A stretch of 64,000 nt of DNA from Flavobacterium macrobrachii (lineage in GTDB: Bacteria > Bacteroidota > Bacteroidia > Flavobacteriales > Flavobacteriaceae): positions 1-64,000 of the forward strand of contig NZ_JACTAC010000004.1 of the NCBI RefSeq assembly GCF_014486675.1, written 5' to 3'. The translations under genes and the position numbers were made by a program. This document shows, one piece after another, positions 3,952 to 26,823 of the stretch; the first letter of the stretch is position 1, and every line of letters starts with the position of its first letter. Below the pieces are notes generated by a model. The model was given only the letters and a program-made list of their open reading frames with translations. It was not told the origin of the DNA and searched no databases.

Positions 3952-5783
3952 TGGATGAAAATTTAAAGAAAATAATTCCTTTTGCAAAAAAGTATAAGTC
4001 CAATGTTATTGGAAACATAACTTTCAACATACTTTATGCGCTTTTTGGAACTTTAGGAATGGTTTTTATTATGCCAGTTCTTTCGGTTTTGTTTGACGAA
4101 AGAAAAAAAGATGTTATAGAATTACCTGAATACACTGGTTTTATTGATGCTGTAGGAAATTGGCAAGATTACATCGCCTACTATGTAAAGCAATTTTCAA
4201 CTGAATATGGTGTTCAATATGGCTTAATGTTTACTGTTGGAATAGTTTTGATTACTTTTTTACTGAAAAATTTATCCAATTATCTAGCGCTTCAGCATTT
4301 AACCAAAGTTAAAAATGGTGTTTTACGTGATTTGCGTGAAAAAATGTTTGCAAAAATTGTGTCATTACCTGTTTCGTATTACTCTGAAAAAAGAAAAGGT
4401 GATGTAATGGCAAGAATGCTTGGTGATGTGAACGAAGTTCAAAATTCATTTTTTATGATTTTGGAACTTATTGTTAAAGAACCGCTAACTATTGTGTTTT
4501 CGCTAATTGCAATGGTTTCAATTAGTTGGAAACTGACTGTTTTTGTATTTATTTTTATTCCAATTTCGGGTTTGGTTATTTCAAAAATAGGAAAATCATT
4601 AAAAGGAAAATCAACCAAAGCTCAACAAGAAAATGGCTATCTAATATCAATCACCGAAGAAACTTTAACGGGTTTGAAAGTGGTTAAAAGCTATAATGCC
4701 GAAAACTTTTTTTCCAAAACATTTAACGATTCTATTAATCGTTTGTACAAGTTAACCAATTCTATAGCCAAGAAAAACAACTTAGCTTCGCCATTGAGTG
4801 AATTTATGGGGATTTTGGTTATTGGTGTTTTATTGGTTTATGGTGGAAATCTAGTTTTAGTTGAAGGTTCATTAAAAGGTTCTGATTTTATTGCTTACAT
4901 TGGATTAGCCTATAATATTTTAACGCCAGCAAAAGCCATTTCAAAAGCATCGTATCAAGTTAAAAATGGATTGGCTGCGGCAGAACGTGTTTTTGAAGTT
5001 TTAGAAGTAGAAAATTCGATTACCGATACTGAAAATGCAAAAAAATTAACATCATTTAATCAAAGTATTGAGTTAAAAAATATCACGTTTGCCTATAACG
5101 ACGAAGCTGTTTTGAAGAATTTTTCTTTAACTATTCCAAAAGGAAAAACAGTTGCTTTAGTTGGACAATCGGGTTCAGGAAAAAGTACGATTGCTAATTT
5201 GCTAACGCGTTTTTACGAAGTAAATCAAGGCGAAATTTTAATAGACAATCATAATATAAAAGAGGTAACAATGAAGTCGCTGCGTTCTTTAACTGGTTTG
5301 GTTACTCAAGACAGCATCATGTTTAACGGAACGATTAAAGACAATATTCGATTAGGAAAATTAGACGCAAGCGATGACGAAATTATTGAAGCGTTGAAAG
5401 TTGCCAATGCTTATGAATTCGTAAAAGATTTGCCTAGTGGAATTGAAACCAATATTGGCGATAGCGGAAATAAGCTTTCTGGCGGACAAAAACAACGTCT
5501 TTCTATTGCGCGTGCGGTTTTAAAAAATCCACCGATTATGATTTTGGACGAAGCAACTTCCGCATTAGATACTGAAAGCGAAAAATTTGTACAAGTGGCG
5601 TTAGAAAATATGATGCAAAACCGAACTTCGGTTGTTATTGCGCATCGACTTTCAACTATTCAAAAAGCAGACGTAATTGTGGTGATGCAAAAAGGAGAAA
5701 TCGTTGAACAAGGAAATCACGACGAACTTATTGCAAAAGACGGAATGTATGCGAGGTTAGTTTCTATGCAGAGTTTTGAGTAA
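3951..5783 (+). CDS. ABC exporter, fused permease and ATPase (MsbA-like)
   Basis: The 610-residue half-transporter has an N-terminal transmembrane domain (to about residue 340). Its nucleotide-binding domain carries Walker A GQSGSGKS, signature LSGGQKQR, Walker B PIMILDEATSALD and the switch histidine in VIAHRLST. It would work as a homodimer in the inner membrane. Lipid A, peptide or drug export are all possible; MsbA-type lipid flippases are the nearest match I recognise. It ends a co-oriented cluster with the mutase and, upstream, the glycosyltransferase, which favours an envelope-lipid role by inference. Confidence 0.92.
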   Translation: MDENLKKIIPFAKKYKSNVIGNITFNILYALFGTLGMVFIMPVLSVLFDERKKDVIELPEYTGFIDAVGNWQDYIAYYVKQFSTEYGVQYGLMFTVGIVLITFLLKNLSNYLALQHLTKVKNGVLRDLREKMFAKIVSLPVSYYSEKRKGDVMARMLGDVNEVQNSFFMILELIVKEPLTIVFSLIAMVSISWKLTVFVFIFIPISGLVISKIGKSLKGKSTKAQQENGYLISITEETLTGLKVVKSYNAENFFSKTFNDSINRLYKLTNSIAKKNNLASPLSEFMGILVIGVLLVYGGNLVLVEGSLKGSDFIAYIGLAYNILTPAKAISKASYQVKNGLAAAERVFEVLEVENSITDTENAKKLTSFNQSIELKNITFAYNDEAVLKNFSLTIPKGKTVALVGQSGSGKSTIANLLTRFYEVNQGEILIDNHNIKEVTMKSLRSLTGLVTQDSIMFNGTIKDNIRLGKLDASDDEIIEALKVANAYEFVKDLPSGIETNIGDSGNKLSGGQKQRLSIARAVLKNPPIMILDEATSALDTESEKFVQVALENMMQNRTSVVIAHRLSTIQKADVIVVMQKGEIVEQGNHDELIAKDGMYARLVSMQSFE

Positions 5784-5811
5784 AAATTACTGTTTTATCA
5801 ATCTCTTTTTT

Positions 5812-5836
5812 GTCAATCTGACGAAGGAAGATTCTC
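5812..5836 (+). repeat. REP-like hairpin, left flank of GIY-YIG gene
   Basis: The unit reads GTC, stem AATC, loop TGACGAAGGAA, stem GATT, CTC. It is inverted relative to the unit at 6173-6197. That unit has the same loop and outer triplets but a different, compensated stem (ATGC/GCAT). Confidence 0.75.
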
Positions 5837-5842
5837 CGTAAA

Positions 5843-6154
5843 CTATTCAAACATATAATTGATAAAACTTAAATGAGGATTAAGTGATTTTATCAATGCT
5901 ATTTTTTTATTTCTAGTCCAACCTTTTAATTCTTTTTCTCTAGCAATTGCTAATTGAATCCATGTGAATTTTTCATAATAGAGTAGGAAATGAACATTAT
6001 ATTTTGATGTAAAAGAAGTTGGGTTTAAATTCTCCGAATGTTGCTGAAGTCTAATTTTTAAATTGTTAGTAACTCCAATATAAAGAACAGTTTTTGCTTT
6101 ATTAGTTAGAATATAAACGTAATATGTATGATAACCTTCTTGAAATTCTAACAT
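5843..6154 (-). CDS. Solitary GIY-YIG endonuclease domain protein (COG2827-like)
   Basis: The 103-residue protein is a single GIY-YIG nuclease domain. It shows YYVYILTN and YIGVTNN for the two signature strands, the catalytic Arg in IRLQQH and the metal-binding Glu in AIAREKELKGW. Nothing else is attached. Small solo domains of this kind (UvrC N-terminal-like, YhbQ-like) are common in Bacteroidota and their cellular role is not established. The gene is flanked on both sides by short hairpin repeats in inverted orientation, an arrangement expected of a mobile cassette or of a nuclease that acts on those hairpins. Family confidence is high; function is unknown. Confidence 0.93.
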   Translation of the reverse strand: MLEFQEGYHTYYVYILTNKAKTVLYIGVTNNLKIRLQQHSENLNPTSFTSKYNVHFLLYYEKFTWIQLAIAREKELKGWTRNKKIALIKSLNPHLSFINYMFE

Positions 6155-6172
6155 ATTTTTCTCAATAATATA

Positions 6173-6197
6173 GAGATGCTTCCTTCGTCAGCATGAC
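6173..6197 (-). repeat. REP-like hairpin, right flank of GIY-YIG gene
   Basis: Read on the minus strand the unit is GTC, stem ATGC, loop TGACGAAGGAA, stem GCAT, CTC. Together with the left unit it brackets the nuclease gene as an inverted pair. Confidence 0.75.
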
Positions 6198-6209
6198 AAA
6201 GATTGTTGA

Positions 6210-6923
6210 TTAATTCACCTGAAATTCTTCAGCTTTCCATTCTTTGGAAGTTAAATTAACAAAGCTGTACACAATTTTATCATTGCTATCAAACTCGCCG
6301 TTTTTGTTTGTGTCTTCTACAGCTCTAAAATAAATTCCGTTTTTTGCAGAAACATATTTCCAGTCGATTAATTCCTGAAAATCTTCGGTTAGTTTGGTAA
6401 AGTTTTTACCGTCAATTGAACTAATGTATAAGGATTTAATGTCAGCATCATTAAGTTTTCCGTCTTTATTTGTATCCAAATCTTCCAACACATAAACCAT
6501 CAATTGTTGTTTGGTTTTATCAGCATGGTTTTTCAAATAAGTTGCCGATTGTATCAAAACATTTTTATCAGTTAAAGCATAAATGGTGTCTTTGCCAATT
6601 TCCTGAAATTTCAAATTATCTAAATAACCCGTAATTTCATATTCGCCATAATTGGAAATGGCATAGCTTATGTTTTTATCACTTTTGCTTGAAGCATAAC
6701 CTTGTTTTTTGAAAAAATTCAAATCGCCAATAGGAAAAATCAAAAAATTAGTTCCTTCCATATGAACTGGTAAGTCAGCAATATCAGCTTTTGACGTATC
6801 AACTTGAGGTTTTGCTTGCGATTTAGGTTGGGTTTCATAAATCACTTTTGGTTTTTCTTGTTCTTCTTTTTTACAAGAAACAAAAGCCAAACTTACTATC
6901 AGAAAGAAAAAAATGTTTTTCAT
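6210..6923 (-). CDS. Putative lipoprotein with calcium-binding-like motifs
   Basis: I do not recognise a named family. The chosen start is seven codons inside the longest frame because it gives a clean lipoprotein signal, MKNIFFFLIVSLAFVSC, with Cys17 as the lipidation site and charged KKEEQ after it. The mature 220 residues contain two acidic loops, DTNKDGKLNDADI and DTNKNGEFDSNDKI. Each looks like an EF-hand or thrombospondin-type-3 calcium loop. It lies 17 bases downstream of the TonB receptor stop on the same strand, so it is probably co-transcribed. Confidence 0.75.
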   Translation of the reverse strand: MKNIFFFLIVSLAFVSCKKEEQEKPKVIYETQPKSQAKPQVDTSKADIADLPVHMEGTNFLIFPIGDLNFFKKQGYASSKSDKNISYAISNYGEYEITGYLDNLKFQEIGKDTIYALTDKNVLIQSATYLKNHADKTKQQLMVYVLEDLDTNKDGKLNDADIKSLYISSIDGKNFTKLTEDFQELIDWKYVSAKNGIYFRAVEDTNKNGEFDSNDKIVYSFVNLTSKEWKAEEFQVN

Positions 6924-26689: not shown

Positions 26690-26823
26690 GAAGCGAATGA
26701 CTTGGTTAGTTTCAGTAATCCATTTTCCCGCTTTTCGTTTCAATCTGTCATTGCGAGGAACGAGGCAATCTCATCAAAAATTTAAAACGCAATGACAGGA
26801 TTTCCACTTCAATCGGGTCTAAT
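26690..26823 (-). repeat. Dispersed hairpin element, copy C, with nested second-family hairpin
   Basis: Read on the minus strand it has the conserved 5' block (TAGACCCGATTG, then GTGGAAATCC), the 3' block (GATTGAAACG, then AGCGGGAAAATGG) and the tail ATTCGCTTC. The central stem is CTGTCATTGCG/CGCAATGACAG (26745-26755 and 26788-26798). One arm of it belongs to the other repeat family at 26747-26772. Confidence 0.75.
26747..26772 (+). repeat. REP-like hairpin nested in copy C
   Basis: It reads GTC, stem ATTGC, loop GAGGAACGAG, stem GCAAT, CTC. This is the same architecture (GTC-stem-GA-rich loop-stem-CTC) as the two units flanking the GIY-YIG gene near 5.8-6.2 kb. Confidence 0.65.

Follow-up and report, generated by a model that had tools for sequence, protein, structure and literature searches.

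A GIY-YIG gene between two inverted hairpin units

The window, that is the whole stretch of 64,000 nucleotides of Flavobacterium macrobrachii DNA analysed here, holds at 5843-6154 on the minus strand a small gene encoding a single-domain GIY-YIG nuclease of 103 amino acids. The open reading frame matches PF01541 (E 4e-16, 59.4 bits against a cut-off of 22.6), which places its product in the GIY-YIG superfamily, and it lies in a cassette-bearing stretch that runs from the stop codon of an ABC transporter gene to that of a lipoprotein-like gene (5784-6209). These two ORFs are convergent and the GIY-YIG gene is free-standing between them, so that it is not housed in an intron, an intein or a coding gene as a homing endonuclease would be. 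The names of both neighbours, like those of eno and carA mentioned below, were assigned from the ORF sequences.

Two hairpin units of 25 nt flank the gene. On its 3' side, 6 bp beyond the stop codon, the unit at 5812-5836 on the plus strand consists of GTC, the stem AATCT/AGATT around the loop GACGAAGGA, and CTC. Upstream, 18 bp before the start codon and on the gene's own strand, the unit at 6173-6197 on the minus strand consists of GTC, the stem ATGCT/AGCAT around the same loop, and CTC. A first-pass annotation made from this sequence had reported both units with these outer triplets, their common loop and compensated stems, and all of this was confirmed; indeed both sides of the stem differ between the two units and the pairing is kept. 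The architecture is best read as a 5-bp stem with a 9-nt loop, a 4-bp stem with an 11-nt loop being the same bases. The annotation had also named a third relative at 26747, which is found between eno and carA (26747-26772, plus strand) and has the stem ATTGC/GCAAT as described, but does not share the 11-base loop since its own loop is GAGGAACGAG. By eye, a remnant of an inverted partner can be seen at 26789-26796 on the minus strand (GCAATGAC, or GTCATTGC on the minus strand), and by the same inspection 26747-26796 is a decayed unit pair. Separately, the flanks just outside the two units of the gene (5793-5811 and 6198-6213) resemble an imperfect inverted repeat, ATCAATCTCTTTTTT and AAAGATTGTTGATT.

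In an alignment of 33 proteins, Y14, Y25, G27, R35, H39, E61, E73 and N92 are invariant; the motif residues are thereby conserved, and the catalytic residues are among them. The AlphaFold model of the window's protein (pLDDT 90.7) has as its nearest solved folds Slx1 (6seh; Z 7.9, 94 residues aligned), a structure-specific nuclease, and the UPF0213 protein BH0048 (1zg2; Z 7.2, 72 aligned), followed by the GIY-YIG domains of I-TevI and UvrC, with a best Foldseek E of 1.2e-3; Z values below 8 speak for the fold and not for the function. A sequence search of the PDB returned no match at E up to 1, and the defence, phage-protein and NCBIfam libraries returned weak matches only, several of them to GIY-YIG or homing endonuclease models.

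Structure and covariation of the unit

Both window units match the pattern GTCANNNNGASGNASGANNNNT, which demands no pairing and fixes only GTCA, two GA dinucleotides, S-G-N-A-S and one T. Covariation was measured on 52 distinct 22-mers, likewise collected without a demand for pairing from 200 places (1 in the reversed control). Of these 52 units, 38 form all four variable stem pairs, compared to a shuffled mean of 7.3 and a maximum of 16, and 47 form the inner loop pair, compared to a mean of 21.8 and a maximum of 32 (1000 shuffles in each case, which ignore descent). Most inner loops are of the form C-GNA-G or G-GNA-C and some are A-GAA-T; among 10-mers C-GNRA-G is frequent. Furthermore, GA stands at both ends of the loop, again without being demanded, in 126/133 nine-nt, 18/18 ten-nt and 7/7 eleven-nt loops and in none of the reversed control. 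Together these counts demonstrate the architecture of the unit and its covariation.

Hairpins of both DNA and RNA are known to gain stability from tandem sheared G-A pairs and from C-GNA-G loops. The GA opposite GA of the unit is not Watson-Crick and would be able to stack as such tandem sheared pairs, with an inner C-G, G-C or A-T pair that would close a GNA or GNRA-like loop. Given the covariation and this potential for stacking, the unit is read as a folded single strand. When five 25/26-mers were folded as single-stranded DNA with nearest-neighbour parameters, they did no better than shuffles (z from -0.8 to +0.6), and two of the five, the window's left unit included, did not fold as drawn; we assume that the program scores sheared G-A pairs poorly. 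The proposed fold therefore rests on covariation, and thermodynamic stability was dropped as evidence. A double-stranded dyad read by a homodimer is disfavoured, as GA...GA and GTC/CTC break the dyad symmetry.

Units in the genome and across the genus

A genome-wide count, which the first-pass annotation had called for, gave 11 matches of the pattern in the window's genome against 0 in the reversed control, and all 11 pair even though pairing was not demanded. The bare 11-mer was dropped as a genome-wide marker: it has 14 matches, of which ten lie outside hairpins in sequence that looks coding by eye and four have a stem, these being the window's two units and near-identical places at L018 and L021 where the outer 5' triplet is GTG and not GTC.

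Across the genus the same pattern has 2752 matches, 84 of 121 genomes being positive, compared to a total of 14 in the reversed control. At least two units are found in 46 of 51 genomes with a strong homologue of the protein (E <1e-30) vs 18 of 49 in which the homologue is weak (E >=1e-15) or missing (Fisher 2e-8, on raw counts that ignore genome size and descent). The 21 genomes of intermediate E were excluded from this test; 11 of them have at least two units. Many units can also occur without a close homologue: G103 carries 132 GA-loop units and its weak homologues have a best E of 1.7e-11, and G058 and G099 carry 21 units each with no homologue match at E 0.001. In G103 the enzyme may have been lost or replaced. 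Conversely, GA-loop matches are missing from four genomes whose homologue is strong, and the one inspected, G012 (locus L143), has short-loop units. Within the loci themselves, where spacers were defined by ORFs, unit density is 5.0/kb in the gene's own spacers vs 2.0/kb in other non-coding sequence.

Flanks of close relatives

The best 80 of 168 confirmed relatives of the protein, mostly from Flavobacterium with one from Kaistella, were taken as the sample of close relatives. At 77 of the 80 loci a hairpin with a perfect 5-bp stem is found no more than 250 bp from the gene, and at 52 this is so on both sides; reversed sequences gave such a hairpin at none of the 80. As for the remaining three, the units of L040 and L041 contain a single mismatch and the repeats of L083 fit no unit model. 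A looser scan up to 300 bp, run without a control of its own, found units at 79/80 loci; in 45 of its 59 two-sided loci the nearest pair is oriented as in the window, with the upstream unit on the gene's strand and the downstream unit on the opposite one. Units fall off steeply with distance, from 175 within 200 bp on the two sides to between 0 and 5 in each 200-bp bin of either side beyond 800 bp, and upstream units stand at similar distances from the gene within groups of relatives. In some flanks, units alternate at a spacing of about 75 bp.

Eight loci have no GA-loop unit within 200 bp, and seven of these carry other loops, as in GTC ATGCT GTCA AGCAT CTC or ATTCC GTA GGAAT. Loops in general range over GACGAAGGA, GAGGAACGA, 10-nt forms, loops of 3-4 nt and loops longer than 40 nt. 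The first-pass annotation had suggested that the nuclease recognises the loop of the hairpins. The loop by itself cannot be what is recognised, since loops are variable and stems shift together with the protein.

In a side observation, the gene copies of L035, L047, L061, L065 and L089 have one internal stop codon, which would fit a selfish gene in the course of decay.

Joint variation of enzyme and unit

When six stem types were placed on a tree of 83 proteins, 80 of them labelled, 17 changes were counted against a shuffled mean of 43.6, with 0 of 200 shuffles as low; the tree has many unresolved forks and label shuffles leave descent in place. Four of the stem types account for the clustering, and ATTCT (5 rows) and ATCCC (2 rows) are not clustered. 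The comparison of paralogs within one genome is stronger evidence than the tree. Seven genomes have two copies in the set and in each the commonest stem differs between the copies: in six the stems are different, and in the seventh a copy with ATTCC stands against one with two ATCTC units and one ATTCC unit. In the window's own genome, long-loop units of the form GTC A[GC]TTC GA...GA GAA[CG]C stand on the flanks of the paralogs L002 and L004, and short units on those of the paralog L001. L002 and L004 (contig G000:C159, about 24.6-26.3 kb) were seen to lie 1.3 kb apart in a cluster of long-loop units of alternating orientation. At the genome's four other GIY-YIG matches (L005-L008; one is below the family cut-off and L005 is UvrC-sized) no units were found.

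Two residues follow the type of unit. Residue 79 is W in 74/74 GA-loop loci and L in 7/7 short-loop loci, which all fall in one tree group (support 89) and may for this reason be a single event. At the 18 ATTTC loci, which are spread over at least two separate parts of the tree, residue 78 is not G: 15 have D and 3 have K. Residue 79 is a candidate for specificity towards the loop class and residue 78 for the ATTTC stem. The joint change of enzyme and unit suggests that each enzyme has its repeat as target and that the repeats spread along with the gene.

Occupied and empty sites

A comparison of empty and filled sites had been proposed along with the first description of the cassette, and both cassettes and unit pairs proved to be absent at orthologous sites in relatives. 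For the window site, 30 neighbouring-gene loci were sampled from 106 genomes with a match, and 25 of them keep the same ABC neighbour. Among these 25 the GIY-YIG gene is present at the site only in the window's own locus: the alignment gap, stop codons included, is 433 bp in the window vs 16, 18 and 25 bp in L145, L147 and L149, and the other loci hold 211-1402 bp of different sequence. Similarly, a stretch of 495 bp in F. franklandianum (L040) with the gene and both units corresponds to 13 bp in F. xanthum (L027). The latter species carries nearby two matching cassette-like copies, about 1.3 kb from each other, and in one of them the first unit is damaged. G103 shares a unit pair with G075 that is cleanly absent from the same place in G099, G006, G060, G008 and G096; the site holds other sequence in G052 (70 bp), G091 (274 bp) and G114 (about 445 bp), the sequences having been read for G103, G052, G099, G006, G060 and G114. 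Unit pairs and cassettes are present at some orthologous sites and absent from others, as in a REPIN-like mobile family. No target duplication was seen at the junctions read by eye, and gain and loss cannot be told apart by these comparisons alone.

Copies outside synteny were compared as well. They gave 1924 aligned pairs, 1428 of them with both units in canonical orientation. Among the 1428, the alignment ends within 15 bp of a unit's outer end in 120 cases on the left and 201 on the right, with no sharp edge at the unit ends, and we claim no exact cassette ends since most alignments stop inside. Nine of ten unit pairs have the tags outside, most of the places having been chosen because they held pairs. 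At the sites of L175, unit pairs were noticed inside other inverted intergenic repeats (ACGCAGATTTT...AAAATCTGCGTG and CTCGCAAAGTC...GACTTTGCGAG), as if nested.

Relatives in other genera and phyla

Whether copies of the gene in other Bacteroidota are flanked by such units had been put forward as a check, and this was borne out. Twenty loci were picked by hand from 117 genomes with a match. One scan (loops of 3-14 nt) found units in 11 and another (GA...GA units with loops up to 56 nt) in 15, together 18 of the 20, and the reversed control was 0 for both. The annotation had held that solitary genes in relatives would speak against the association; these were sought and, besides the unit-free L005-L008 of the window's genome, were L083 alone among the 80 closest loci and, among the 20 of other genera, L257 and L258, where neither scan accepted a unit.

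Further afield, 12 of the 33 plasmid-collection records with a relative were inspected, covering three phyla: Planktothrix, Spirosoma, Sinorhizobium, N. gonorrhoeae, Azospirillum, Novosphingobium, Sphingobium, Rhizobium, Shinella, R. tumorigenes, Photobacterium and Aeromonas. CGTC-type hairpins lie within 300 bp of the gene in all 12 of these distant relatives and in 0/12 of the reversed control. The scan accepted the ends CGTC, TGTC, CCTC or TCTC with either a stem of at least 7 bp and a 3-6 nt loop or a GA...GA loop, and its parameters (longer stems, optional CCTC, any first stem base) were chosen after the flanks had been read. An earlier, looser scan gave 11/12 with 2/12 in the reversed control, and two of its matches looked spurious. 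The CCTC end is a variant named in PMC3733652. Most units outside Bacteroidota have stems of 7-9 bp, short loops and often CCA-like tails, as CGTC REPs do, and those of Planktothrix have a GA...GA loop.

The only relative found in the N. gonorrhoeae record NZ_CP119140.1 shares 46% identity over 80 residues and sits among dRS3-type hairpins; over the record as a whole a general pattern has 203 matches against 0 in the control. Several "plasmid" records of 2-5 Mb (NZ_CP119140.1, NZ_AP026896.1 and others) look like chromosomes filed as plasmids. In the Planktothrix agardhii plasmid (L228), the gene and its units were observed to have an MmeI-type restriction gene on one side and the DISARM gene drmA on the other.

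Proposed mechanism and alternatives

We consider it probable that the nuclease encoded by the gene belongs to a REPIN-like selfish family and cleaves its cognate hairpin within single-stranded DNA. The protein would be a small GIY-YIG endonuclease whose substrate is the flanking hairpin unit, and the unit would be recognised folded, through the 5' GTC, a short clade-specific stem, GA opposite GA and a CTC-like 3' tail. Cutting of the hairpin itself is likely. As the units are inverted, each strand of the cassette has one correctly oriented hairpin at its 5' end, and each strand would be cut once when single-stranded, as in replication, uptake or repair. The unit-gene-unit cassettes and the unit-unit pairs of about 65-125 bp act as a REPIN-like selfish family that accompanies the enzyme across Flavobacterium genomes and that the enzyme may have brought about, and the occurrence in one genome of paralogous enzymes with different stems is as expected of private enzyme-target pairs.

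The enzyme could also act as a mobiliser, RAYT-like processing of hairpins during replication excising or copying unit pairs and the cassette into new sites. This is a possible reading that we hold to fall somewhat short of an even chance. It agrees with the presence and absence of unit pairs and cassettes at orthologous sites, with the two cassette-like copies about 1.3 kb apart in F. xanthum, where the site occupied in F. franklandianum is empty, and with the fact that unit number tracks the gene. However, we know of no GIY-YIG enzyme that joins strands as transposases do, no target duplication or sharp alignment edge at the unit ends was seen, and the empty sites could stem from loss by deletion. 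A little more doubtful is that the enzyme serves its host or itself by cutting incoming or exposed single-stranded DNA that bears units, thereby controlling transformation or ssDNA uptake. The relative among dRS3-type units of N. gonorrhoeae, in a record with 203 pattern matches (0 in the control), points in this direction, and Ssn and the Neisseria repeats reportedly have such a role, but F. johnsoniae is reported as non-competent under the conditions tested, and control of uptake alone explains neither cassettes at varying sites nor a stem type for each paralog.

The upstream unit is carried by the coding strand, with 18 bp between it and the start codon, and stands at similar distances within groups of relatives; it could be an RNA hairpin in the gene's leader through which the protein cuts or binds its own mRNA. 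Such autoregulation is improbable, however: the 3' unit is antisense to the gene, so that its transcript form is the reverse complement without the GA...GA loop, many units lie away from the gene, and the RNA families searched in 5600-6400 gave only three matches at E up to 1, all far below the cut-offs of their Rfam families. That the hairpins are ordinary terminators or generic intergenic repeats next to the gene by accident is very improbable, even though units are found in other intergenic regions too. Transcription terminators were rejected, as no terminator-like site was found near the gene (5700-6400), and generic repeats fit neither the steep fall of units away from the gene nor stems that follow the protein clade, nor the four other GIY-YIG genes of the genome without units.

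A bolder reading than the cutting of cognate hairpins is that this subfamily is the missing dedicated enzyme of CGTC-type repeats, with a private hairpin for each copy, and actively moves unit pairs and cassette via ssDNA hairpins. It would extend over Bacteroidota, Pseudomonadota and one cyanobacterium, the Bacteroidota hairpins being made of sheared G-A pairs and GNA loops. We regard it as speculative and rather unlikely; if true, it would mean a new enzyme chemistry for REPIN-like elements. GTC-type repeats, short hairpins dispersed over many bacterial genomes and reported without an enzyme of their own (PMC3733652), gain a candidate partner in three phyla. Moreover, the varied stems and loops offer a natural set of enzyme-target pairs for asking how a nuclease of 100 residues reads a hairpin. 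If cleavage is confirmed, the clades would be a ready panel of ssDNA cutters with different targets, and if mobility is confirmed, a new class of enzymes would stand behind REPIN-like elements.

Comparison with known systems

Slx1 and the UPF0213 protein BH0048 are the best structural matches to the model. Slx1 is a eukaryotic nuclease of branched DNA that acts with a partner subunit, and differs in this from the window's protein.

Closest in kind is Ssn, reportedly presented in 2025 in Nature Communications as a site-specific ssDNA GIY-YIG nuclease family of Neisseria with the repeat NTS; the study is said to describe thousands of homologues and effects on transformation. The N. gonorrhoeae relative among dRS3-type hairpins is, we take it, Ssn. 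The window's protein, single-domain and GIY-YIG as well, is homologous to this Neisseria protein, and homology to the GIY-YIG protein that lies among its target repeats in Neisseria is what defines the family. Since Ssn is reported to be a family of ssDNA-specific GIY-YIG nucleases, the activity is probably not new in kind and the locus is probably a Bacteroidota variant of it. The Ssn repeats have an 8-bp stem and a 4-nt loop, in contrast to the 5-bp stem and GA...GA loop of the window units. The window's system also differs in its compact inverted cassette and in paralogs with different stems in one genome; cleavage by its protein is a prediction.

Among the literature matches listed, judged by titles and abstract openings with many journals outside the coverage, none ties GIY-YIG genes to these repeats; nor were unit pairs, per-paralog stems or cassette presence and absence found tied to this enzyme in the literature searched. 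The repeats themselves resemble the CGTC REPs described in 2013 together with GTAG repeats. In that paper (PMC3733652), CGTC-1 to CGTC-4 include Neisseria dRS3, grouped as CGTC-1, and Rickettsia RPE-4 and RPE-6; the repeats occur mostly as head-to-head pairs with the tags outside and apparently without a dedicated transposase, and 'GIY' is absent from the main text. The likeness extends to the 5' TGTC/CGTC end (in both window units a T precedes the GTC), to stems that mostly begin with AT and to dispersed copies, and perhaps to head-to-head pairing, judging from pairs at places mostly chosen for holding them. However, CGTC REPs of families 1-4 have a stem of 8-9 bp, a loop of 4-5 nt and the tail CCA, compared to a stem of 5, a loop of 9 and CTC in the window units.

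With REP/REPIN elements and their RAYTs the locus has in common that small hairpins form inverted pairs, which are scattered over the genome and also enclose a single nuclease gene. RAYTs are HUH tyrosine enzymes associated with GTAG repeats, whereas the window has a GIY-YIG enzyme and GTC/CTC-like ends, and so belongs to neither RAYTs nor REPs in the strict sense. The parallel to REPINs that the first-pass annotation had drawn, with a GIY-YIG nuclease taking the place of the Y1 enzyme, nevertheless carries through the inverted flanking units, the dispersed pairs, the unit number that tracks the gene and the empty sites, and is well supported as a matter of anatomy and distribution.
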